Part shown: one piece after another, positions 49,708-62,729 of the stretch
Layout of the letters: the number at the start of each line of letters is the position of its first letter
Position numbering within the stretch: the stretch's first letter is position 1
Translations under genes and position numbers: made by a program
Notes under the pieces: generated by a model
Told to the model about the DNA's origin: nothing
Seen by the model: the letters and a program-made list of their open reading frames with translations, nothing else
Databases searched by the model: none
Assembly: GCF_000154845.1 (NCBI RefSeq)
Contig: NZ_DS981496.1
Span: 1 to 64,000, forward strand
Direction of reading: 5' to 3'
Origin: Phocaeicola coprocola DSM 17136
GTDB lineage: Bacteria > Bacteroidota > Bacteroidia > Bacteroidales > Bacteroidaceae
DNA: 64,000 bases

Positions 49708-49719
49708 ATGAATGTTACT

Positions 49720-51363
49720 ATGAAAAGAAAATTATTATATAGCTTTTTTATTGCTGCTGCAATGAGTTTTAGTGGATGTTCTTCTTTCTTGGAAGAAAAT
49801 CCTGTTGATCAGATGCCGGAAAGTGAAGCCTATAAAAATCCGGAAATGATTTATTTAAATACAGTTGCTAACCTTTATACAAAGATTGGCGCAGATGCAG
49901 GAGGAAGTGGTTTGGCTGGAACAGACAGAGGACTTTATGACTTGAATACATTTTGTGCCGATGATGCTATCCTCCCGACAAGAGGTGGTGACTGGGACGA
50001 TGGTGGATTGTGGAGAGATCTGTTCACTCATAACTGGGGTGTAAATAATGGACTTATCATATCTACTTGGGACTATCTGTATGGAGTGATTGTACAGTGC
50101 AATCAATCTATAGATAAATTGACTGAGTTGAAAGAGTTGGATCCAAGCAATGAATATTTTGATATTTATAAGGCTGAAGTCCGGGGAATTCGTGCTATGT
50201 ATTATTATTATTTATTGGATATGTTTGCACGTGTACCAATTGTTGAATCTTCATTAACTCAGATGAAGGATGTCAAACAGTCAGAACGCAGTGAGGTTTT
50301 CAATTTTGTAAAGAAAGAGCTGGAAGAATCTATTCCATTGTTAGCTGACGAAAAAAGTGCTGATCTGGGAGAGTATTATGGGCGTATGACTAAGGCTGTT
50401 GCTTACTTCCTTATGGCTAAGTTGGCTTTGAATGCTGAAGTTTATACTGATAACGACTGGACAGACCAATCTCGTCCTGATGGAAAGAATATTAAATTTA
50501 CAGTGGATGGCACAGAAAAAAATTGCTGGGAAGCTACCGTCGCTTATTGTGATAAAATCAAGGAGTGTGGATATTCTTTAAATCAGGGAACAAATGGATT
50601 CCTTTCTAACTTCGTAGTTAATAATGAAGGATCTAAGGAAAATATTTTTGTTATTCCAATGGATCCAACCTTGTATAAAGCTCGTAATATGTATCTGGTA
50701 CGTTCACGCCATTATGATGTTGGTAAAGCATTAGGATTTGGTAATGGAGGTTGGAACGGATCTGCTGCTACTATTGAAGCAATGAAAGCATTTGGGTACG
50801 GAACTGCAACTCCTGATCCTCGTTTGGAATTAACTTATTATACAGGCCGGGTTGTTGTAAACGGGCAAGAAGTTATTAACAGTGAAACTGGAAAACCTTT
50901 GGAATATTTACCAATGGCAATCAGGCTTCAATTCGATAAGAGTGATACTAGCATGAAGATGGCTGGAGCACGAATGTATAAGTACGCAGATGATCCGACT
51001 GCAACCGAAGATGGACAGTGTCCTCATAACGACTGGGTATTGTTCCGTTATGCAGATGTTGTATTGATGCGTGCTGAGGCTTTGATTCGTAATGGTCAAA
51101 GCGGACAGGCTGATTTAGATGAAGTCAGAAATCGTGTTGGAGCACCTCATGCAGATGCTACTTTAAGTAATTTGTTGAAAGAACGTATGTTGGAACTGGC
51201 ATGGGAAGGATGGAGACGTCAGGATTTGGTTCGTTTTGGTAAGTTTAATGATGCTATAACTGATCGTCCTAAGACAGAAGCTTATTTACAAGTGTTCCCG
51301 ATTCATGCTAACACTTTGGCTGTCAATCAGAATTTGACACAAAATCCGGGATATTCAAAATAA
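49720..51363 (+). CDS. susD: SusD/RagB-type surface starch-binding lipoprotein
   Basis: The product has 547 residues from MKRKLLYSFF; an in-frame ATG at 49708 adds four residues. The lipobox ends in SGC with the Cys 20 residues from this start. TPR helices (RAMYYYYLLDMFARVPIVE, AKLALNAEVYT) and the C-terminal ELAWEGWRRQDLVRFGKF are the SusD hallmarks. SusD binds starch helices and caps SusC as a lid. The sequence differs strongly from B. thetaiotaomicron SusD and belongs to the wider SusD family, so starch specificity rests on context. It starts within 12 bp of the susC stop. Confidence 0.92.
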   Translation: MKRKLLYSFFIAAAMSFSGCSSFLEENPVDQMPESEAYKNPEMIYLNTVANLYTKIGADAGGSGLAGTDRGLYDLNTFCADDAILPTRGGDWDDGGLWRDLFTHNWGVNNGLIISTWDYLYGVIVQCNQSIDKLTELKELDPSNEYFDIYKAEVRGIRAMYYYYLLDMFARVPIVESSLTQMKDVKQSERSEVFNFVKKELEESIPLLADEKSADLGEYYGRMTKAVAYFLMAKLALNAEVYTDNDWTDQSRPDGKNIKFTVDGTEKNCWEATVAYCDKIKECGYSLNQGTNGFLSNFVVNNEGSKENIFVIPMDPTLYKARNMYLVRSRHYDVGKALGFGNGGWNGSAATIEAMKAFGYGTATPDPRLELTYYTGRVVVNGQEVINSETGKPLEYLPMAIRLQFDKSDTSMKMAGARMYKYADDPTATEDGQCPHNDWVLFRYADVVLMRAEALIRNGQSGQADLDEVRNRVGAPHADATLSNLLKERMLELAWEGWRRQDLVRFGKFNDAITDRPKTEAYLQVFPIHANTLAVNQNLTQNPGYSK

Positions 51364-51390
51364 AGAAAACCTTATAGAATAAAGAAACAT

Positions 51391-52092
51391 ATGAAAACAT
51401 ATTTCAAATATATAGCATTGACCTTATTGCTTGCTTTGGGGCTTGTAAGTTGTGAAGATAATGAAAACTGGCGAATTATTCCATATGAACCGGAACCTGA
51501 GGCTCCGGTTGATGGGCCTGAACAGTTGTATGTGGTTGGTGCTCACCAAAATTGGGCTCCAGATGCAGCTGTTATAGGAAAACTTTATCCAATAGACGCT
51601 ATGGGTAATTATGCCGGATATGCTTATTTGAACGGTGAATACAAATGTACTTCACAGCAAAATTGGAGTGGCCCTAATTATGGAGCAGGTTCGACTGAAG
51701 GAACATTGTCGACAGCTGAGGATGCTGGTAACCTGACTGCAGAAGAAGGGTATTATTATCTTACTTTTAATATCAAAGAGCTTACATATACAGTTCAGCT
51801 TGTAAACTTTGGTGTTATTGGAGATGCTACTCCTGGTGGCTGGAATGAAGATACCGATTTAGTTTATGATCCAGCTGATCTAAAGTTGAAAGTAGATATG
51901 ACATTGACAGACGGTACGATTAAGTTTCGTGCAAACGATCAGTGGGATGTTCCTAATGGAGATTTTGGTGCAGGAGATAGTGAAGGCAAATTGGCTCCAA
52001 AAGGAAATAACATTAGTGTGACGGCTGGTGATTATCAAGTGGTAGTAGATCTTTCGACTCCGGATTATACTTATGAATTGATAGCTAAATAA
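51391..52092 (+). CDS. susE: SusE/SusF-like surface starch-binding lipoprotein (short)
   Basis: The product has 233 residues. The lipobox LVSC marks Cys21. An N-terminal Pro-rich linker (EPEPEAPVDGPE) is followed by two repeated beta-domains, QLYVVGAHQNWAPDAA (residues 45-140) and NFGVIGDATPGGWNEDTD (141-233). Both carry the GWN/NW pattern of SusE/SusF carbohydrate-binding modules. Classic SusE has three such domains and about 387 residues, so this is shorter by one domain, like OsuC of B. fragilis. It is 27 bp after susD. Confidence 0.85.
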   Translation: MKTYFKYIALTLLLALGLVSCEDNENWRIIPYEPEPEAPVDGPEQLYVVGAHQNWAPDAAVIGKLYPIDAMGNYAGYAYLNGEYKCTSQQNWSGPNYGAGSTEGTLSTAEDAGNLTAEEGYYYLTFNIKELTYTVQLVNFGVIGDATPGGWNEDTDLVYDPADLKLKVDMTLTDGTIKFRANDQWDVPNGDFGAGDSEGKLAPKGNNISVTAGDYQVVVDLSTPDYTYELIAK

Positions 52093-52107
52093 TTAAATTA
52101 ATATTAG

Positions 52108-52154
52108 GAGTGCGTCGATAGGGCTTTGCCAGATTGTACGCACTCTTTTTTTCT
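52108..52154 (+). terminator. Terminator-like hairpin between susE and the GH13 gene
   Basis: GAGTGCGT pairs with ACGCACTC around a 22-nt loop, followed by TTTTTTTTC. The hairpin ends 8 bp before the ATG of the next gene. It probably attenuates the distal gene. Confidence 0.8.
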
Positions 52155-52161
52155 TCTATCT

Positions 52162-54525
52162 ATGAAAAACTATATATTGACTTATATATTGTTAGCACTG
52201 GGGTTTATTACTTCATGTAGTGATACCGATTCGAATACTTTGCCTGGTGGTGTAACAGATAATTTGAAAGAAGGCTTTACTTATTTACCGGAAACTCCCG
52301 ATGCTGACCAGCCTCTCACGATTACATTTAAGGCGTCACCGACTTCTGCTTTATATGGATATGTTGGTGATGTATACTTGCATACAGGAATAGTAAGTGA
52401 GGGAGTGTGGCTGTATGTGCCTGCAGATTGGAATGAAAATATTGAAAAGTGTAAGTTTACTAAAAGTCAAACTGAGGCTAATGTATGGACCATTACTCTT
52501 TCTCCGTCTATTCGGGAATGGTTTGCTTCCGGTACAACTCCTGTTGAACAATTGGGAATTATCATTCGTAGTGCAGATGGTAGTAAAAAAGGTATTGACA
52601 AAGATCAGTTTGTGAATGTTACGGATATGAAATATCATGGATTCGTTCCTGGTAAGGTTCAGGAGAAATCACTTCCTTCAGGGGTGCAGGAAGGAATTAA
52701 TTTGGATATAGATAATTGTACCGTGACATTAGTTCTGTATGATAAAGCAACTGATGGAAGTCATAAAGACTATGCGTATGTTGTAGGAGATTTTAATGAG
52801 TGGACATTGGCTAATGATGAAACATCCCAGATGTATCGTGATGAAGCAACAGGATGCTGGTGGATTACAATTTCTGATTTAGATCCTGCAAAGGAGTATC
52901 GTTTTCAGTATTATGTAGGGACTTTAACAGGTGATGTCATGCGACTGGCAGATCCTTATTCTGAAAAGATACTGGATCCGGATAACGATAAATATATTGC
53001 AGCATCTACTTATCCGGTTACAGAAAGGCAATATCCTGATAAAGGCATAGGCATCGTGTCTGTTTTTAAGCTACAGCGAGAAGAATATAGCTGGATAAAT
53101 ACAGATTTTAAGATAAAAGATGCTGATAATCTGATGATTTATGAAATGTTGTTACGTGACTTTACAGAAAGTGGTGATTTGAATGGAGCTATACAAAAGT
53201 TAGATTACTTACAGGCCTTAGGCATCAATGCCGTTGAGTTGATGCCTGTACAAGAGTTTGATGGGAACAATAGCTGGGGGTATAATCCTTGTTTTTTCTT
53301 TGCATTGGATAAGGCTTATGGTACAAAAGAAATGTATAAACGTTTCATTGATGAATGTCATTCTAGGGGAATAGCTGTTTTGTTTGATGTCGTTTACAAT
53401 CATGCCACGGGAAATATGCCATATGCAAGACTATATTGGAACAATTCCAAAGGATGTCCTGCGGTCAATAATCCATGGTTTAACGAAGCAGCACCACATC
53501 CATTTAGTGTTTTCAATGATTTTAATCACGAGTCAGAGTTAACACGTCGTTTTGTAAAGCGCAATCTTAAATTTCTTTTGGATGAATATAAAATAGATGG
53601 ATTCCGTTTCGATTTAACAAAGGGATTTACAAATAAGACAAGTAATGAAGGTACTTCCGGAAATTATGATGCTAGTCGTGTAGCCATTTTAAAGGATTAT
53701 TATCTGGCTATTAAAGAAGTCAATCCAGACGCTATTATGATTTGCGAACATTTGGCAGGTATTGAGGAGGAAAGCGAATTGTCACAAATAGGAATGAAGT
53801 TATGGCGTAATATGAATAATGCTTATTGTCAGTCTGCAATGGGATGGAGTGAAGGAAGTGGTTTTACTGGACTTACTACCTTTAATACGACTATGAAAGA
53901 AGGTGGATGGGTTGGTTACATGGAAAGTCATGACGAAGAGCGGTGTGCTTATAAACAAACCCAATGGGGAAATGGATTATTACAAACCGATTTGTCTGTA
54001 CAGATGCAACAACTAGAGGCAAATGCTGCTTTCTTCTTTATGGTATCAGGACCTAAAATGATCTGGCAATTCGGAGAATTGGGATATGATATTTCGAGAG
54101 ATGCTAACCAGCAAGGAGAAGTTATTTCTGGTGAAGATCACAAGACAGATCCTAAGCCTGTTTTATGGTCTTATAAAGATATACCAGAAAGAAATGAATT
54201 ATATACCACTTATAGTCGGTTGTTAGCATTGCGTAAGGCATATCCTGATGTCTTTGGCCAAAATGCCTTTAAGGAATGGAGGGTTTCTGATAATGATTGG
54301 AATGACGGACGCTATATCCGTTTGGAAACTGTTGATGGTAAACAACTTGTTGTCGTAGGTAACTTTACTGACCGACCTGTTGATATGCAGTATGTATTCC
54401 CTGTAACGGGAGAATGGTATAACTTCTGTAAAGAAGGAATGCCAGAAATCATTACGGCTACACATTTGGAGGTTCCAGCACACAGTTTTGGCTTATATAC
54501 GAATTTCTCTATTCCTGTAAAATAG
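52162..54525 (+). CDS. Surface GH13 alpha-amylase/pullulanase-like lipoprotein
   Basis: The product has 787 residues from the ATG at 52162; the ORF extends further up through the terminator and is not used there. The lipobox FITSC gives Cys19. Residues 30-165 form a SusE-like or starch-binding N-terminal domain. Residues 180-300 form a CBM48/E-set domain (VVGDFNEWTLAND). The GH13 barrel follows with Asp484 in GFRFDLTKGF, Glu529 in MICEHLAG and Asp591 in MESHDEER. It replaces SusG in this locus and would cut starch at the cell surface, like OsuD in B. fragilis. Confidence 0.88.
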   Translation: MKNYILTYILLALGFITSCSDTDSNTLPGGVTDNLKEGFTYLPETPDADQPLTITFKASPTSALYGYVGDVYLHTGIVSEGVWLYVPADWNENIEKCKFTKSQTEANVWTITLSPSIREWFASGTTPVEQLGIIIRSADGSKKGIDKDQFVNVTDMKYHGFVPGKVQEKSLPSGVQEGINLDIDNCTVTLVLYDKATDGSHKDYAYVVGDFNEWTLANDETSQMYRDEATGCWWITISDLDPAKEYRFQYYVGTLTGDVMRLADPYSEKILDPDNDKYIAASTYPVTERQYPDKGIGIVSVFKLQREEYSWINTDFKIKDADNLMIYEMLLRDFTESGDLNGAIQKLDYLQALGINAVELMPVQEFDGNNSWGYNPCFFFALDKAYGTKEMYKRFIDECHSRGIAVLFDVVYNHATGNMPYARLYWNNSKGCPAVNNPWFNEAAPHPFSVFNDFNHESELTRRFVKRNLKFLLDEYKIDGFRFDLTKGFTNKTSNEGTSGNYDASRVAILKDYYLAIKEVNPDAIMICEHLAGIEEESELSQIGMKLWRNMNNAYCQSAMGWSEGSGFTGLTTFNTTMKEGGWVGYMESHDEERCAYKQTQWGNGLLQTDLSVQMQQLEANAAFFFMVSGPKMIWQFGELGYDISRDANQQGEVISGEDHKTDPKPVLWSYKDIPERNELYTTYSRLLALRKAYPDVFGQNAFKEWRVSDNDWNDGRYIRLETVDGKQLVVVGNFTDRPVDMQYVFPVTGEWYNFCKEGMPEIITATHLEVPAHSFGLYTNFSIPVK

Positions 54526-54590: not shown

Positions 54591-55436
54591 TTATCTTGCT
54601 TGACTTCTAAATTCTTTGGGTGACATTCCTGTATTTTTCTTGAAAAAGCGACTTAAGTATGACTGATCGGGGAAGTTGAAATGCTGTGCTATTTCGGTAA
54701 CCGATAAATGTGGGTCATCCAATAACACTTTGATTTCGGCTGTTAATTGCTCATCGATCAACTGTTTGGGAGTTCTTCCGTTTACATATAAAGCAATAAT
54801 CTCATTCAAATATCGTGATGTGATACATAGCTTGTCGGCATAAAAAGCTACCTGATGCTCTCGTGTACTATATTCTCTTACAAGTTGCAGAAACTGATAA
54901 TAGAGAATCTGTTTGCGACTGTATTGTTTTTTCACAGCCAGTTTTTCCTGAATAGTATTGAATAACCACATCAATAGACTTTGTAGAAAGTTATATTCCT
55001 GCTGTTGGCGGAATTGAGGTGTATTGTCCATGAATTGCATTTGTGCCATGTCCATCCATAAATTTATTTCTTTCCATGTCTTTTGGCTTCGTTCGTCCTC
55101 TGTATGATGATAACAGGGATGTTCATGTGTATAATTATAATAGGGAGTATCAATTGGTAGTACTGCTTTTAGAAAAACCTCTTGTGGAAACATCAGAATA
55201 CGTGCTTTAAAGTCGTACGATGATTGTACCACTTGTATCAGGCTGCCAGTCAGAAAGATTAACTCAGTCTGTTCTTCGAATATATATTGTTGTACACCAG
55301 TCGAAATAAGCGCTTGTCCGTGTGTACATATTAAATAGATACCACATTTAAAGTGACATGGCTTTTGTTTGAGCTGGGCCAGATCAGTTTCTTCGTATAA
55401 AATATATCGTGTGTCTGACGGTAATGAATATGGCAT
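54591..55436 (-). CDS. AraC family regulator of the first araC-MFS pair
   Basis: The product has 281 residues from the ATG at 55436 (MPYSLPSDTRYILYEETDL); the longer frame to 55643 crosses the divergent promoter and is rejected. The N-terminal cupin-like sensor (residues 20-130) is followed by two HTH motifs (HQVAFYADKLCITSRYLNEIIALYVNGRTPKQL, VTEIAQHFNFPDQSYLSRFFKKNTGMSPKEFR). It is about half identical by eye to the regulator at 56847-57698. It is divergent from a Bcr/CflA exporter that it probably controls. Confidence 0.92.
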   Translation of the reverse strand: MPYSLPSDTRYILYEETDLAQLKQKPCHFKCGIYLICTHGQALISTGVQQYIFEEQTELIFLTGSLIQVVQSSYDFKARILMFPQEVFLKAVLPIDTPYYNYTHEHPCYHHTEDERSQKTWKEINLWMDMAQMQFMDNTPQFRQQQEYNFLQSLLMWLFNTIQEKLAVKKQYSRKQILYYQFLQLVREYSTREHQVAFYADKLCITSRYLNEIIALYVNGRTPKQLIDEQLTAEIKVLLDDPHLSVTEIAQHFNFPDQSYLSRFFKKNTGMSPKEFRSQAR

Positions 55437-55458
55437 GAATGACTTCTGTTTTATACCG

Positions 55459-55466
55459 CAAATATA
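55459..55466 (-). promoter_or_regulatory. -7 box of the first AraC gene
   Basis: TATATTTG on the minus strand, 22 bp before the start. Confidence 0.55.
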
Positions 55467-55493
55467 CTTATATTCTCTGATGAAATATACATA

Positions 55494-55525
55494 TGTTCCT
55501 AAAATGAAATGTTTTGTACTTTTAA
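55494..55525. promoter_or_regulatory. Predicted AraC operator, copy 1
   Basis: A 32-bp block (TGTTCCTAAA at the left, GTTTTGT in the right half) recurs at 57756-57787. It lies 27 bp from the AraC -7 box and 28 bp from the MFS -7 box. Two TGTT words spaced by 16 bp suggest AraC half-sites. Confidence 0.6.
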
Positions 55526-55553
55526 AGAAATAAATCGTTCTGTGAGAATGGCG

Positions 55554-55561
55554 TAATTTTG
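55554..55561 (+). promoter_or_regulatory. -7 box of the first MFS exporter
   Basis: TAATTTTG, 11 bp before the ATG at 55573. Confidence 0.55.
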
Positions 55562-55572
55562 CAGTCGAAAAA

Positions 55573-56841
55573 ATGAAGGTAAAAAAGATGATAACGACGA
55601 AGAAACAAGATTCAAAGCTATTTATACTGATATTTTTAGGCATGTTAAGTGCATTTGGTCCTTTTGTTATGGATATGTATCTGCCTACATTGCCTGCTAT
55701 GTCCGATTATTTTCATACAACTTCCTCTATGGTTCAGCTGGGACTTACTTCCAGTATGGTAGGACTAGCTATTGGTCAATTGATTTTTGGTCCGTTAAGT
55801 GATAAATATGGTCGTCAACGTCCATTGATAATTGCTTTATTCTTGTTTCTGTTTTCTACAGTCGGATGTATTTTTTCGCAAAATATCATGCAGTTTGTGG
55901 TATTGCGTTTTGTACAGGGAGTAGCTGGAGCTGGTGGCGTAGTTCTTTCTCGTTCGATAGCTACTGATAAATATTCAGCACGTGAATTGGCTACTATGTT
56001 AGCTATAATCGGAGCTATTAATGGTATTGCTACGGTAGCTGCTCCGATAGCAGGAGGAGTATTGGCAGAGGGTGCAGGATGGCATGGCATCTTTTGGTTT
56101 TTATTTTTGTTGGGAGGCGTATTGCTGTGCTGTAGTTTTCGTATGCAAGAATCGTTACCTGCACATCGCCGCCCGGAAGTGAATTGGAAAGGTATATGCC
56201 GAAATTTTGGTACAGTATTGAGTAACCGCCGATATTTATTTTATATTCTGCAATATGGCTTTACGATGGGAGTACTTTTTGTAAATATTGCTTCAGCTCC
56301 TTTTATTATGCAGCAGCACTATGGATTATCTCCTATGATGTTCAGCTTGTGTTTTGGAATCAATGCTATCGCTATGGTTATTTCTTCTACTATATCAGTT
56401 AAGCTTCCTACTATGGAACATGCTTTGCATATCGGTAGTAATGGCATGCTGGTCGTTTCTGCTTGTCTGCTTGTTTGTCTTTCACTGAATTGTAACTTTT
56501 GGATATATGAAATATTGATTTTCTGTTTACTTGCTATGGTGGGTATGAGTTATACTGCATCAAATGCTTTGGCAATGGATTGCGAACGCAGATATGCTGG
56601 TATTGCTTCTGCTCTGTTGGGAGCTATTGGTTTTCTGTTTGGTGGATTAGTCCCTCCTTTAGCAGGTTTAGGCGATATGATGTACACGGCAGGAGTGCTG
56701 TTCCTGGCTGGAGCTGTCTGTGCATATCTCTGCGCAAGATATGCGATGCCAGTTCGAGAGGGTGAAAAAAATCTGTTGTATCGCATATGTTATGTTATGA
56801 TTCATTTACCCTATACTATTATAAATAGAAAACGTGGATAA
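55573..56841 (+). CDS. Bcr/CflA-type MFS drug exporter, first copy
   Basis: The product has 422 residues and 12 predicted membrane segments. The Bcr/CflA hallmark FVMDMYLPTLPAM lies in the first segment (residues 31-45), and the MFS loop motif GPLSDKYGRQRPL follows segment 2. RFVQGVAGAGGVVLSR is the family motif in segment 4. It exports small drugs or metabolites by proton antiport; the substrate is unknown. It ends 5 bp from the convergent AraC gene of the second pair. The C-terminus is about 26 residues longer than the paralogue. Confidence 0.9.
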   Translation: MKVKKMITTKKQDSKLFILIFLGMLSAFGPFVMDMYLPTLPAMSDYFHTTSSMVQLGLTSSMVGLAIGQLIFGPLSDKYGRQRPLIIALFLFLFSTVGCIFSQNIMQFVVLRFVQGVAGAGGVVLSRSIATDKYSARELATMLAIIGAINGIATVAAPIAGGVLAEGAGWHGIFWFLFLLGGVLLCCSFRMQESLPAHRRPEVNWKGICRNFGTVLSNRRYLFYILQYGFTMGVLFVNIASAPFIMQQHYGLSPMMFSLCFGINAIAMVISSTISVKLPTMEHALHIGSNGMLVVSACLLVCLSLNCNFWIYEILIFCLLAMVGMSYTASNALAMDCERRYAGIASALLGAIGFLFGGLVPPLAGLGDMMYTAGVLFLAGAVCAYLCARYAMPVREGEKNLLYRICYVMIHLPYTIINRKRG

Positions 56842-56846
56842 AATAT

Positions 56847-57698
56847 TTAAAGCTTGTTCCGACTCCGAAATTCTTTGGGTGACATACCTGTGTTCTTTTT
56901 GAAAAAGCGGCTCATATTGGCTGGCTCTTGAAAATTGAATAGCTGAGCTATTTCCATTATAGACAGACTAGGATTACTTAATTGTACTTTTAACTCGGCT
57001 GTGAGCTGTTCGTCTATAAGCTGTTTGGGTGTACGTCCATTAGAGTATTGAATAACGACTTCGTTCAGGTAACGCGGTGTAATACAAAGTTGGTTAGCGT
57101 AATAGTTTATTTGATGTTCCTGAGTACTATGCTCTCGTAATAAGACCATAAAACGGTGATACAATATTTGTTTTCTACTATACTTGTTATGTATGGAGAG
57201 ATATTGTTGTGGAATCGTATTGAATATCCACATAAACAAACTTTGTAGAAAATTTTGTTCTAGTTGCTCCCGAAAATATTTGGCAGGGTGACTGAAAAGA
57301 AGTTCTGCCATATCCATCCATTGATTTACTCGTTTCCAGCTTGCTAAACTTGTATCGTTTGCTGCATGGTTAAAGTAAGGCGCTTCACTCATGTAGTTAA
57401 AGTAAGAAGTGTCAATAGGTAAGGCTGCTTTTAGAAAAATATTTTTAGGAAATAGCAACATTCTTACCTTAAAGTCAGGAGAAGGTTTGATGACTTCGAT
57501 AAGACTTCCTGCTAGAAAAATCAGTTCCGATGTTTTACAGAAATCATATTGTTCTACTCCTGTAGAAATAATACTTCTGCCGCTTATGCAAAGCAGTTGT
57601 ATACCACACTCAAACCGAAAGGGGCGTTTTGTGAGTGAAGATAGATCGGTTTCTTCATATCGCATAATCGATGTATCAGAAGGAAAAGAAGATATCAT
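56847..57698 (-). CDS. AraC family regulator of the second araC-MFS pair
   Basis: The product has 283 residues and is a close paralogue of the regulator at 54591-55436 along its whole length (shared YEETDLSSL/YEETDLAQL opening, RTPKQLIDEQLTAE, FKKNTGMSPKEFRS). It has the N-terminal sensor and two HTH motifs. It is divergent from the second MFS exporter (147 bp between starts). In the second HTH, FNFQEPANMSRFF replaces FNFPDQSYLSRFF, so DNA or ligand preference may have shifted. Confidence 0.92.
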   Translation of the reverse strand: MISSFPSDTSIMRYEETDLSSLTKRPFRFECGIQLLCISGRSIISTGVEQYDFCKTSELIFLAGSLIEVIKPSPDFKVRMLLFPKNIFLKAALPIDTSYFNYMSEAPYFNHAANDTSLASWKRVNQWMDMAELLFSHPAKYFREQLEQNFLQSLFMWIFNTIPQQYLSIHNKYSRKQILYHRFMVLLREHSTQEHQINYYANQLCITPRYLNEVVIQYSNGRTPKQLIDEQLTAELKVQLSNPSLSIMEIAQLFNFQEPANMSRFFKKNTGMSPKEFRSRNKL

Positions 57699-57720
57699 GA
57701 TAGTGTTCTGTTTATGTAGG

Positions 57721-57728
57721 CAAATGTA
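57721..57728 (-). promoter_or_regulatory. -7 box of the second AraC gene
   Basis: TACATTTG on the minus strand, 22 bp before the start, the same distance as in the first pair. Confidence 0.55.
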
Positions 57729-57755
57729 GTAATTTGTTGGTGAAAAAACTGCCTT

Positions 57756-57787
57756 TGTTCCTAAATTGATAGGTTTTGTGCTGTAAA
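57756..57787. promoter_or_regulatory. Predicted AraC operator, copy 2
   Basis: Begins TGTTCCTAAA and contains GTTTTGT in the same position as 55494-55525, at identical distances from both -7 boxes. Confidence 0.6.
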
Positions 57788-57815
57788 ACGCTGATATGTA
57801 TGTTGAAAAGTTCTT

Positions 57816-57823
57816 TATTTTTG
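57816..57823 (+). promoter_or_regulatory. -7 box of the second MFS exporter
   Basis: TATTTTTG, 22 bp before the ATG at 57846. Confidence 0.5.
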
Positions 57824-57845
57824 CAGCGGTAAAAAATAGAGTAAA

Positions 57846-59036
57846 ATGAAAGGCAAAAAGAATTCAAAAGTATTTATACTAGTGTTTTTAGGTATGCTTA
57901 CAGCATTTGGACCATTTGTTACGGATATGTATCTGCCTACTTTACCAGCTATGTCTGAATATTTCCATACAACTTCTTCGATGGTACAGTTAGGTCTTAC
58001 GGCAAGTATGATTGGACTTGCTGCTGGACAGTTGCTTTTCGGACCATTAAGCGATAAATATGGTCGTCGGTTGCCACTTATTATATCAATGACTTTGTTT
58101 GCTGTTGCTACTATTGGATGTATATATTCTTATACTATAATGCAGTTTGTTGGTTGGCGCTTGATACAAGGTATAGCCGGAGCAGGAGGTATTGTTATTT
58201 CACGTTCAGTTGCAGCTGACAAATACTCTGGACGTGAGTTGGCAAAGATGCTTGCCTTGATTGGTGCCATTAATGGGGTAGCCCCTGTAGCAGCACCTAT
58301 GGGAGGAGGATTTCTAGCTGGAAGTGTGGGTTGGACTGGTATTTTCTGGTGCCTTTTTGTATTAGGGATAATATTGCTTTTGGGTAGTATACACTTTGAA
58401 GAGTCGCTTCCGGTTGAGGATAGAAAAGAGAAAAGTTGGAGGTCTGTTTTTCGTAGCTTCATCGATGTTCTTCGCAATTCTAGTTATGTGTGCTATACGT
58501 TACAGTTTGGTTTTGCACAAGGAGTATTGTTTGCTAACATAGCTTCGGCACCGTTTATTATGCAACAACATTACGGATTTTCTCCGTTGATGTTTAGTAT
58601 ATGTTTTGGTATCAATGCCCTATTCATTGTTATATCAGCAGCTTCGGCTATCAAGTTTCGTCGGCTGGAACAGGCTTTGCATTATGGTAGCACTGGAATG
58701 GTCGTCGTTTCTGCATTGCTTTTAGTAGCGTTAGTTTTAGATTGCAATTTTTGGATATATGAATTATTGTTGATTGGTCTTTTGTCAATGCTTGGACTTA
58801 CTTTTACAGCTTCCAATACATTGGCCATGGATTGCGAACACAATAATGCAGGAATGGCATCGGCATTATTGGGAGCTTTAGGATTTGCTTTTGGAGGAAT
58901 TGTTTCACCATTGGTAGGTCTTGGTAATATAATGGTTTCTACAGGAATAATTTTTCTTATGGGTTCTATCTGCTCATATGTCTGTACGCGTTATGCTTTG
59001 CATAGAAATCTTAAAACAGTATGTCAACGTTCGTGA
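57846..59036 (+). CDS. Bcr/CflA-type MFS drug exporter, second copy
   Basis: The product has 396 residues and 12 membrane segments, paralogous to the exporter at 55573-56841 (shared FGPFVTDMYLPTLPAM, GPLSDKYGRRLPL, RLIQGIAGAGGIVISR). Together with its divergent AraC gene it forms a duplicated regulatory-transport module. It ends 136 bp before a tRNA-Leu. Substrate unknown. Confidence 0.9.
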   Translation: MKGKKNSKVFILVFLGMLTAFGPFVTDMYLPTLPAMSEYFHTTSSMVQLGLTASMIGLAAGQLLFGPLSDKYGRRLPLIISMTLFAVATIGCIYSYTIMQFVGWRLIQGIAGAGGIVISRSVAADKYSGRELAKMLALIGAINGVAPVAAPMGGGFLAGSVGWTGIFWCLFVLGIILLLGSIHFEESLPVEDRKEKSWRSVFRSFIDVLRNSSYVCYTLQFGFAQGVLFANIASAPFIMQQHYGFSPLMFSICFGINALFIVISAASAIKFRRLEQALHYGSTGMVVVSALLLVALVLDCNFWIYELLLIGLLSMLGLTFTASNTLAMDCEHNNAGMASALLGALGFAFGGIVSPLVGLGNIMVSTGIIFLMGSICSYVCTRYALHRNLKTVCQRS

Positions 59037-59172: not shown

Positions 59173-59256
59173 GCCCAGATGGCGGAATCGGTAGACGCGC
59201 TGGTCTCAAACACCAGTGGAGTAACATCCATCCCGGTTCGACCCCGGGTCTGGGTA
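59173..59256 (+). tRNA. tRNA-Leu (CAA)
   Basis: An 84-nt class II tRNA. Acceptor GCCCAGA pairs with TCTGGGT. The anticodon loop CTCAAAC between CTGGT and ACCAG gives CAA, followed by a long variable arm and GTTCGACCC T-loop. Confidence 0.95.
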
Positions 59257-59263
59257 CAGAAAG

Positions 59264-59422: not shown

Positions 59423-59809
59423 ATGAAAAACGATTATTTGAATATGCTAGCCAGCCTCGTGTTGCCGGCTCAGATATTAGATTACTTTCTTATCTCTGGA
59501 GTTGAACAAACCTCTCAAGAGATTCATATTAGTCTGGATGAAAAGATGAATTCCAAGTTAAGCAATGACGAACATTTTGAATCCAAAGGTTTTATGGAAG
59601 CTGTTAATGTGACAGACTTTCCCATACGGGACCATAAGGTAATCCTCAAGATCAGACGTCGTCGTTGGACGGACTTGCGCACAGGTAAAAGTTTCAGTAT
59701 TCCCATCGACCTCGATGTTGTAGCCAAGGGAACCAGATACTCCAAAGAATTTGGGGCTTTTTTAAAAGAAACGTATGGAGACATCCCCAGTGACCTGCCG
59801 TACGCTTGA
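59423..59809 (+). CDS. ISAon1-type transposase N-terminal region protein (copy 2)
   Basis: The product has 128 residues, intact and the same as the other two copies except for Ser instead of Pro in MNSKLSN. It has the basic KIRRRRWTDLRTGKS stretch for presumed end binding. Because the downstream catalytic ORF of this copy is frameshifted, the product could only help transposition together with another copy's transposase. Confidence 0.88.
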   Translation: MKNDYLNMLASLVLPAQILDYFLISGVEQTSQEIHISLDEKMNSKLSNDEHFESKGFMEAVNVTDFPIRDHKVILKIRRRRWTDLRTGKSFSIPIDLDVVAKGTRYSKEFGAFLKETYGDIPSDLPYA

Positions 59810-60766
59810 GGAATTCTATCATATAGATGGTCATACATTTGAAAACAGTACAAGGAGGTTCTCAGCGGATATCGTAATTGGGAACAGTTATCCCATGCCG
59901 GTGAATGGATGCTGTTTCCGGAAAATATGGGACCGTATCTGGCGATTGACGAGACCTCACTCTCTAACGGTGAACTTTACACCTTTGTAACCAACCGTGA
60001 TGCCTGTACGAGAGAGTGCTCCCTGGTAGCTGTCGTGGCAGGAACTAAATCAGAGGATGTAATAGCTGTGCTGCAACGAATTGACGAGGAAAGCCGTTAT
60101 GCCGTTAAAGAAGTGACACTTGACCTTTCAGACTCCATGCGCAAGATTGTACGGACTGCATTTCCTGAAGCCAGCCGTGTGATAGACCGTTTTCACATTC
60201 AGAGATTAGCTTGTGATGCCGTGCAAGAATTACGCATCAAACACCGTTGGGATGCCATACAGCAGGCCAATGAGGAAATGGAAGAAGCTAAGCGGAAGAA
60301 CGAAGATTATGTCCCATACCGATATTCCAATGGCGATACCCGTAGGGAATTACTTATACGCTCCCGGTATCTGCTTTTCAAGTCAGCTGATAAATGGACA
60401 GAAAAACAGAAGCAAAGGGCAGCAATCCTATTTGAGGAATACCCTGACATCAAAAAGGCATACGGTTTGTGCCATTCCCTGCGGATGATTTTCTCTAAGA
60501 ACACCATAAAGGACGCTGCACGTCTGGCTATGGCACGATGGTATAATAAAGTAGAAGAAGCAGGGATGCATTCTTTTAATGTCATTGCTGCTACTTTCTA
60601 TGAGCACTATGATGAAATACTGAATTTCTACAACCATCGTTCTTCAAATGCGATGGCAGAATCGTTCAATGCAAAAATTAAACTGTTCAGAGCAAATCTA
60701 AGAGGCGTAGCTGATAAGAAGTTCTTTTTATTCCGCATTGCGAAGCTATATGCGTATCCCCACTAA
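59775..60766 (+). pseudogene. ISAon1-type transposase, frameshifted (copy 2)
   Basis: The first 23 codons match the intact transposase, then the frame changes at the four-A run 59842-59845 (five A in the other copies) and stops at 59990. The rest, from an internal ATG at 59909, restores the catalytic part (285 residues including all three acids). A protein starting there would lack about the first 45 residues. It is probably inactive. Confidence 0.9.
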
Positions 60767-61384: not shown

Positions 61385-61771
61385 ATGAAAAACGATTATT
61401 TGAACATGCTAGCCAGCCTCGTGTTGCCGGCTCAGATATTAGATTACTTTCTTATCTCTGGAGTTGAACAAACCTCTCAAGAGATTCATATTAGTCTGGA
61501 TGAAAAGATGAATCCCAAGTTAAGCAATGACGAACATTTTGAATCCAAAGGTTTTATGGAAGCTGTTAATGTGACAGACTTTCCCATACGGGACCATAAG
61601 GTAATCCTCAAGATCAGACGTCGTCGTTGGACGGACTTGCGCACAGGTAAAAGTTTCAGTATTCCCATCGACCTCGATGTTGTAGCCAAGGGAACCAGAT
61701 ACTCCAAAGAATTTGGGGCTTTTTTAAAAGAAACGTATGGAGACATCCCCAGTGACCTGCCGTACGCTTGA
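61385..61771 (+). CDS. ISAon1-type transposase N-terminal region protein (copy 3)
   Basis: The product has 128 residues, identical to copy 1. It ends 35 bp inside the catalytic ORF in another frame. Its likely role is recognition of the terminal repeats through the basic KIRRRRWTDLRTGKS segment. Confidence 0.88.
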   Translation: MKNDYLNMLASLVLPAQILDYFLISGVEQTSQEIHISLDEKMNPKLSNDEHFESKGFMEAVNVTDFPIRDHKVILKIRRRRWTDLRTGKSFSIPIDLDVVAKGTRYSKEFGAFLKETYGDIPSDLPYA

Positions 61772-62729
61772 GGAATTCTATCATATAGATGGTCATACAT
61801 TTGAAAAACAGTACAAGGAGGTCCTCAGCGGATATCGTAATTGGGAACAGTTATCCCATGCCGGTGAATGGATGCTGTTTCCGGAAAATATGGGACCGTA
61901 TCTGGCGATTGACGAGACCTCACTCTCCAACGGTGAACTTTACACCTTTGTAACCAACCGTGATGCCTGTACGAGAGAGTGCTCCCTGGTAGCTGTCGTG
62001 GCAGGAACTAAATCAGAGGATGTAATAGCTGTGCTGCAACGAATTGACGAGGAAAGCCGTTATGCCGTTAAAGAAGTGACACTTGACCTTTCAGACTCCA
62101 TGCGCAAGATTGTACGGACTGCATTTCCTGAAGCCAGCCGTGTGATAGACCGTTTTCACATTCAGAGATTAGCTTGTGATGCTGTGCAGGAATTACGCAT
62201 CAAACACCGTTGGGATGCCATACAGCAGGCCAATGAGGAAATGGAAGAAGCTAAGCGGAAGAACGAAGATTATGTCCCATACCGATATTCCAATGGCGAT
62301 ACCCGTAGGGAATTACTTATACGCTCCCGGTATCTGCTTTTCAAGTCAGCTGATAAATGGACGGAAAAACAGAAGCAAAGGGCAGCAATCCTATTTGAGG
62401 AATACCCTGACATCAAAAAGGCATACGGTTTGTGCCATTCCCTGCGGATGATTTTCTCTAAGAACACCATAAAGGACGCTGCACGTCTGGCTATGGCACG
62501 ATGGTATAATAAAGTAGAAGAAGCAGGGATGCATTCTTTTAATGTCATTGCTGCTACTTTCTATGAGCACTATGATGAAATACTGAATTTCTACAACCAT
62601 CGTTCTTCAAATGCGATGGCAGAATCGTTCAATGCAAAAATTAAACTGTTCAGAGCAAATCTAAGAGGAGTAGCTGATAAGAAGTTCTTTTTATTCCGCA
62701 TTGCGAAGCTATATGCGTATCCCCACTAA
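61737..62729 (+). CDS. ISAon1-type transposase, catalytic part (copy 3)
   Basis: The product has 330 residues, identical in protein to copy 1. The DDE acids are Asp59 (LAIDETSL), an Asp in VTLDLSDSM and the Glu of NAMAESFNAK. The upstream frame is closed by TAA at 61725-61727, so the protein either starts at its own ATG (coupled to the end of the N-terminal ORF) or is joined by a +1 shift within 61728-61771. Confidence 0.93.
   Translation: METSPVTCRTLEEFYHIDGHTFEKQYKEVLSGYRNWEQLSHAGEWMLFPENMGPYLAIDETSLSNGELYTFVTNRDACTRECSLVAVVAGTKSEDVIAVLQRIDEESRYAVKEVTLDLSDSMRKIVRTAFPEASRVIDRFHIQRLACDAVQELRIKHRWDAIQQANEEMEEAKRKNEDYVPYRYSNGDTRRELLIRSRYLLFKSADKWTEKQKQRAAILFEEYPDIKKAYGLCHSLRMIFSKNTIKDAARLAMARWYNKVEEAGMHSFNVIAATFYEHYDEILNFYNHRSSNAMAESFNAKIKLFRANLRGVADKKFFLFRIAKLYAYPH

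Follow-up and report, generated by a model that had tools for sequence, protein, structure and literature searches.

A probable AraC-type operator of two tandem half-sites stands at a fixed distance from efflux-pump promoters in Bacteroidales

Two neighbouring gene pairs of Phocaeicola coprocola DSM 17136, each consisting of an araC-family gene divergent from a gene for a Bcr/CflA-type major facilitator superfamily (MFS) efflux transporter, carry a similar 32-bp block between the genes. The pairs, designated unit 1 and unit 2, lie in a 64,000-nucleotide stretch of DNA (contig NZ_DS981496.1, positions 1 to 64,000), the whole of which is referred to here as the window. Which protein binds this block, and which of the two divergent promoters does it serve? 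Comparison of sequences indicates that the block is very probably a regulator-binding site whose two tandem half-sites keep a constant distance to the efflux-pump promoter. We consider it likely that the adjacent AraC-family protein binds the full operator of about 41 bp as a dimer and activates the MFS promoter.

An ungapped alignment of the two intergenic regions spans 136 columns. The blocks were located correctly by the original prediction (Table 1); they are identical at 26 of 32 positions (22 of the first 26), compared with 54 of 104 elsewhere in the alignment (Fisher p 0.002), which bears out the claim that the other intergenic sequence has diverged. None of 10000 base permutations produced 22 matches in any 26-base stretch. 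The longest identical run between the blocks spans ten bases (TGTTCCTAAA), and both operators keep TTGTTCC or TGTTCC together with GTTTTGT. The predicted promoter distances are likewise exact in both units: counted from the block start, the last base of the araC -7 box lies at -28 and the first base of the MFS -7 box at +60. Searched with up to 3 mismatches, a 24-base pattern finds these two sites only in the window (0.01 expected). Across the whole genome, a 23-base pattern matches without mismatch at these two promoters only and yields five further matches at 3 mismatches, compared with 1 for the reversed control. A wider regulon in this genome was considered and rejected, as these five matches look like chance; the sole one that was read (L137) lies downstream of a gene judged by eye to be enolase-like, in a TTTTGTACAA-rich stretch.

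Orthologous loci reveal how strictly the block is kept. A search of genome contigs with a single protein as query gave no match; an alignment used as query gave 80 named loci, the first 64 of which (L055–L118) were analysed. Loci L119–L134, which are short or distant, were excluded save L120, which entered a hand-picked alignment of 48 rows (A3). The 64 loci comprise 41 adjacent pairs, defined by a divergent MFS gene within 700 bases of araC; 14 with the MFS gene farther along the contig; three (L077, L081, L085) with it on another stretch of the genome; three (L115–L117) with no MFS match; and three (L074, L079, L114) with no pairing of block and MFS gene. For 58 of the 64, the block stands ahead of a related MFS gene of the Bcr/CflA type. 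Loci that keep the genes and lose the block were sought among the adjacent pairs, and the block held in 41/41; the titles of these loci include Bacteroides, Phocaeicola, Paraprevotella, Mediterranea, Parabacteroides and Marseilla as well as uncultured Muribaculaceae, Alistipes and Odoribacter.

With the window's two units, 43 adjacent pairs could be compared. The distance from the block start to the MFS -7 box is 60 bases in 39 of them and 59, 59, 59 and 61 in the others; a -7 box of the sigma-ABfr type (TAnnTTTG) thus lies 59–61 bases after the block start in 43/43. The distance to the araC -7 box is 28–31 bases in 34/43 and 39, 58, 63, 183 or 240 in five, and a strict pattern finds no araC -7 box in the remaining 4/43. 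Since the MFS spacing is near-invariant and the araC spacing variable, it is the MFS promoter to which the block is strictly tied. The original prediction that the block is placed identically in both promoters therefore holds within this genome, whereas across genomes only the MFS distance is strictly kept.

Loci in which araC has naturally moved apart from the operator reveal which promoter the site serves. In 14 loci from Cryptobacteroides and relatives, the MFS gene lies 1.3–2.5 kb from araC. Open frames were listed for 11 of these loci (all except L089, L091 and L096), and in 11/11 araC is separated from the operator by a trpS-like gene; the one such gene that was scanned is a class I W/Y tRNA synthetase. 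The spacing scan covered all 14, and the operator lies 60 bases from the MFS -7 box in 14/14. Within 900 bases upstream of araC in the same loci, nothing scored above 0 bits by an operator matrix seeded with the window's sites, a matrix under which the window's own scores are not independent. In three of five genomes searched, operator and MFS gene were found on another stretch, again 60 bases apart (3/3), which brings the exact 60-base spacing to 17/17 loci with araC apart. Wherever the two genes have come apart, the operator has remained at the MFS promoter, and araC retains nothing comparable.

Column conservation, profiled on 35 of the 43 rows after rows at least 80% alike were dropped, extends the element about 2 bases to the left and about 7 to the right of the 32-bp block. 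Columns -2 to 25 are rich in information, as are 31, 33, 36 and 38, and the content is low from there until the -7 box at 60–67. The full operator of about 41 bp reads as two direct half-sites 21 bp apart, with a half-site consensus of roughly TTGTnC-N7-GnnATG; typical letters in clade 1, the larger of two clades defined below, are TTGTTCCTAAAATGAAATG in half-site 1 and TTTGTACAAnnTAAGnCATG in half-site 2. A 21-bp direct repeat of the profile scores 0.0, compared with -18.5 for the next best period and -15.4 for the best inverted repeat; an inverted-repeat operator was rejected accordingly. Models of half-site 1 built without the tested locus place the best second match at +21 on the same strand in 14/35 loci, and every other offset accounts for two or fewer loci (about 441 positions scanned per locus). 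A leader peptide or RNA element, also considered, is unlikely because the operator lies upstream of both -7 boxes and hence of both inferred transcription starts.

About 21 bases lie between the end of half-site 2 and the MFS -7 box; judged by this distance only, half-site 2 fits the -33 region. One report gives the sigma-ABfr consensus as TAnnTTTG at -7 plus TTTG near -33, and notes that Flavobacterium johnsoniae showed no -33 motif (PMC7366714). No TTTG occurs in consensus columns 30–59 upstream of the MFS -7 box, and columns 40–59 carry at most 0.51 bits. Because half-site 2 appears to occupy this place and no -33 element is seen, the bound dimer would probably replace that element.

Two lines of comparison suggest that the neighbouring AraC-family protein is the binder. 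The first is co-occurrence. Regulator homologues, counted at E 1e-45 or better, are found in 18/399 sampled genomes of the family, 15/149 of one other genus and 4/18 of another; within these samples only the window's genome has two copies. (At E 1e-30, 18 of 61 genomes of its own genus have the regulator, and G026 also has two, at 39% and 29% identity.) In the 149-genome sample, a stringent operator pattern occurs in 6 genomes, each of them one of the 15 that have the regulator, and in 0/134 genomes without it (control 0). The match lies 70–78 bases from the regulator match in five genomes and 314 in G514. For the nine regulator genomes with no match, the operators seen have changed letters (a B. 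fragilis type and a GCCATG type), and two of the nine, G470 and G526, are distant relatives. The second line is co-change. Arg263 in the second helix-turn-helix (HTH2) is present in 53 of 55 protein rows and is His in the other two, both of the B. fragilis type (L058, L059). The operators of this type (L058, L059, L060) have lost both G12 and G33, which are 21 positions apart. G12 is kept in the other 40/43 operators and G33 in 38/43, the further exceptions being L113 and unit 2.

These observations are consistent with a model in which each block is the central part of an operator, of the AraC type, that serves the MFS efflux gene next to it. The divergent araC product, with a predicted AraC-like N-terminal domain for dimerisation and ligand sensing and a modelled double helix-turn-helix, would bind the two direct half-sites as a dimer. 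The bound dimer would stand in for the absent -33 element and recruit RNA polymerase to the MFS promoter upon a signal, perhaps a substrate of the pump. We infer activation, as opposed to repression, from this geometry.

Several points weigh against this model. The Arg-His change is suggestive and falls short of proof because it represents one event in one lineage. Half-site 2 is the weaker copy, since it is the best second match in only 14/35 loci, and a protein bound near the -33 region could repress. The site may also act on araC, because the distance to the araC -7 box is fairly constant. Loci L074 and L079, whose regulators are 58% and 56% identical, show no operator pattern and no MFS homologue at E 1e-60, and L114 shows no block. 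The unit 2 operator scores weakly by either of two clade matrices and carries C at position 33. Finally, a looser pattern (up to 2 mismatches) matches at 23 places in 16/61 genomes of the genus, with 6 control matches. Six of the 23 lie at intact araC-mfs loci, including all four zero-mismatch matches (the two described here, G009 and G048), and 16/23 lie away from such loci (one of them read, in G003).

Some of these loci merit description in their own right. In G053 (L164:2288), the remaining one of the 23, an operator of the clade-2 type precedes an mfs gene that is split over several frames, and the 5 kb read contain no araC; this appears to be a decaying copy in which the operator is retained. 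Loci L115, L116 and L117 encode diverged regulators with no MFS neighbour and have weak block-like sites (9.8–17.8 bits) upstream of the AraC gene; these sites, which precede other genes (DUF169 in L117), likewise stand 60 bases away from a -7-like box.

The original prediction went further, proposing one type of operator bound by both regulators and cross-regulation of the two units. Every sequence test agrees with an operator. Shared binding fares less well, and cross-regulation in this genome is doubtful. In its favour, both operators keep the short motifs given above, both regulators keep Arg263 of HTH2 and part of HTH1, and the unit 1 operator scores 24.3 bits by the clade-2 matrix, inside the range of clade-2 members (19.0–55.9). 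Trees were built from 55 regulators and 55 transporters, with L060, L118 and the loci with no MFS match left out. Unit 2 groups with the units of P. coprophilus (DSM 18228), P. plebeius and B. mediterraneensis (clade 2), supported at 100/100 for transporters and, weakly for the placement of AraC2, at 94/60 for regulators. This old clade excludes unit 1 in both trees; the regulator tree joins unit 1 to the larger group, clade 1 (93/87), and the transporter tree does not settle its place. A mosaic origin of unit 2 was considered, as by identity AraC2 is nearer AraC1 and MFS2 nearer clade 2, and was rejected because the trees place both with clade 2.

The operators differ as well. By matrices from hand-picked rows (17 for clade 1, 12 for clade 2), the unit 1 operator scores 36.6 bits with clade 1 and the unit 2 operator 27.9 bits with clade 2 and 22.1 with clade 1, the last value lying below the leave-one-out scores of all 17 clade-1 members, the lowest of which is 29.9. 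Half-site 1 of unit 2 fits clade 1 (18.1 vs 10.3) and half-site 2 fits clade 2 (17.5 vs 4.1). The recognition helix of HTH2 reads DQSYLSR in AraC1 and EPANMSR in AraC2, so that five positions in a row differ (DQSYL vs EPANM). Moreover, the site is kept in genomes with a single unit, and cross-talk is unneeded to explain it; the two copies therefore represent inherited family anatomy and are silent on cross-talk. Most control of each unit probably comes from its own regulator, through largely separate wiring, with cross-binding possible above all via half-site 1. Tentatively, and with our expectation leaning somewhat against it, we suggest that this AraC lineage offers a readable recognition code in which the promoter register is frozen throughout Bacteroidales, half-site letters change with HTH2 residues (Arg263 with G12/G33), and the shifts in unit 2 (EPANM in the helix; C33 and GATAG in the operator) insulate adjacent pump switches.

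A rather unlikely alternative to activation is that the AraC protein mainly represses both divergent promoters and that binding of a drug releases it, so that pump and regulator are silenced together. The 32-bp block indeed lies about midway between the -7 boxes, at distances of 28 and 29 bases, and the araC distance of 28–31 bases in most adjacent pairs would suit a repressor. Against this, the 60-base MFS register persists after araC has moved, when araC is left with no comparable site, and an MFS promoter with no visible -33 element fits one that depends on an activator.

It is very improbable that the block is instead a promoter element or the site of another, global factor. The argument for it comes from locus L165 (800–2364, G003), where TGTACCAAAAATGAGATGTTTTGTG, a TATCTTTG box and a cation-efflux gene follow another gene of the AraC family; the box lies, by eye, 50 bases after the start of TGTACCAAAAATGAGATGTTTTGTG, one helical turn below 60, and similar motifs occur in G012, G046 and G051. 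This motif reads as a related operator in another AraC branch, which means that the motif type is not limited to the present family. A global site is opposed by the restriction of close matches in this genome to these two promoters, by the confinement of the stringent pattern to regulator-bearing genomes of the genus sample, and, in the B. fragilis type, by joint change of the site and the regulator's recognition helix. The idea that the block is a meaningless leftover of recent duplication, suggested by two adjacent units of like layout, can be dismissed because fourfold-degenerate sites are near saturation (40/116 identical in the mfs pair, 18/49 in the araC pair), other species fall between the units in the trees, and the block is conserved across several Bacteroidales families.

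Both regulators contain the C-terminal double helix-turn-helix of the AraC/XylS family, with HTH_18 scores above the cut-off of 33.6 bits (Table 1), and are 58.5% identical. They match NCBIfam AraC-type models, none at its cut-off, and a Pfam scan gave no match for the N-terminal domain of either. The AlphaFold model of AraC1 has a mean predicted local distance difference test score of 90.3, and its fold matches ToxT, Rns and AraC. Alignment with the dimerisation domain of AraC (2arc) gives a template-modelling score of 0.60 by target length (E 6.2e-5). By modelled fold, the N-terminal domain of AraC1 is an AraC-type sensor and dimerisation domain, and the protein would be expected to dimerise. 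A regulator profile matched the AraC DNA-binding domain 2k9s at 8.2e-11, chiefly across HTH2. A PHROGs scan added nothing.

Table 1. Coordinates of genes, promoter boxes, blocks and half-sites of the two units in the window
Feature	Position	Strand	Description	Basis
araC1	54591..55436	-	AraC-family regulator of unit 1, 281 amino acids	HTH_18 59.0 bits, HTH_AraC 43.8 bits, both above Pfam cut-offs
araC1 -7 box	55459..55466	-	CAAATATA (minus strand TATATTTG)	
Operator 1, half-site 1	55492..55511	+	TATGTTCCTAAAATGAAATG	column conservation; 21-bp repeat
Unit 1, 32-bp block	55494..55525	+		pairwise alignment of intergenic regions
Operator 1, half-site 2	55513..55532	+	TTTGTACTTTTAAAGAAATA	conserved columns 20-25, 31, 33, 36, 38
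mfs1 -7 box	55554..55561	+	TAATTTTG	
mfs1	55573..56841	+	Bcr/CflA-type MFS efflux transporter, 422 amino acids	TIGR00710 260.6 bits, cut-off 200.9
araC2	56847..57698	-	AraC-family regulator of unit 2, 283 amino acids	HTH_18 58.0 bits
araC2 -7 box	57721..57728	-	CAAATGTA (minus strand TACATTTG)	
Operator 2, half-site 1	57754..57773	+	TTTGTTCCTAAATTGATAGG	column conservation
Unit 2, 32-bp block	57756..57787	+		pairwise alignment of intergenic regions
Operator 2, half-site 2	57775..57794	+	TTTGTGCTGTAAAACGCTGA; C not G at operator position 33	
mfs2 -7 box	57816..57823	+	TATTTTTG	
mfs2	57846..59036	+	Bcr/CflA-type MFS efflux transporter, 396 amino acids	TIGR00710 249.4 bits, cut-off 200.9

Upstream of unit 1, SusD-like, SusE-like and alpha-amylase-like genes, assigned by eye from translations, stand in a row (49708–54525). 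A tRNA-Leu (CAA) gene at 59173–59257 lies between unit 2 and insertion sequences, which consist of adjacent, nearly identical sets of transposase genes (59423–60766 and 61385–62729); a 285-amino-acid frame in the first set is of the ISL3 type, and its counterpart in the second has 330 amino acids.

To our knowledge, few sites of AraC-family proteins have been defined in gut Bacteroidales, including the B. fragilis group. The analysis provides a testable operator and candidate binder for an efflux-pump switch found in many of these bacteria, that group included, and the Arg-His change with loss of G offers a clean basis for a specificity swap. No account of this operator system was found among the papers listed by literature searches, as judged by titles and opening abstracts. 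One study links an AraC regulator to growth on heparin (PMC11300592).

The operator is an ordinary kind of switch, of the AraC type and thus of an already known class. The araI1 site of E. coli has a 21-bp period and a spacing of 11 from A-box to B-box, and araC is a divergent regulator gene. The operators described here resemble this arrangement in their two direct half-sites, 21-bp period, sub-box spacing of 11 and divergent regulator gene. E. coli AraC occupies two promoter-adjacent sites, araI1 and araI2, at araBAD, the nearer of which recruits RNA polymerase (PMC4760080), and tandem repeats occur at AraC-type promoters (PMC7499043). Half-site 2 likewise stands next to the promoter, as araI2 does where RNA polymerase is recruited, and the HTH2 helix of AraC1 shares DQ-x-Y-x-SR with the AraC chain 2k9s. 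Unlike the E. coli system, the promoter has a -7 box of the sigma-ABfr type in place of -10 and -35 elements, the half-site letters are different, and the target is an efflux pump. The double helix-turn-helix domain also likens the regulators to the AraC/XylS activators MarA, ToxT and Rns. MarA, however, is a monomer when bound. The best full-length fold matches of AraC1 include ToxT and Rns, although sequence identity to those chains is only about 9–13%. Both transporters, finally, resemble the Bcr/CflA family in passing its model (TIGR00710) and are unlike TcaB in that they score 301.4 (MFS1) and 284.7 bits (MFS2) by the TcaB equivalog model (NF053813), short of its cut-off of 475.

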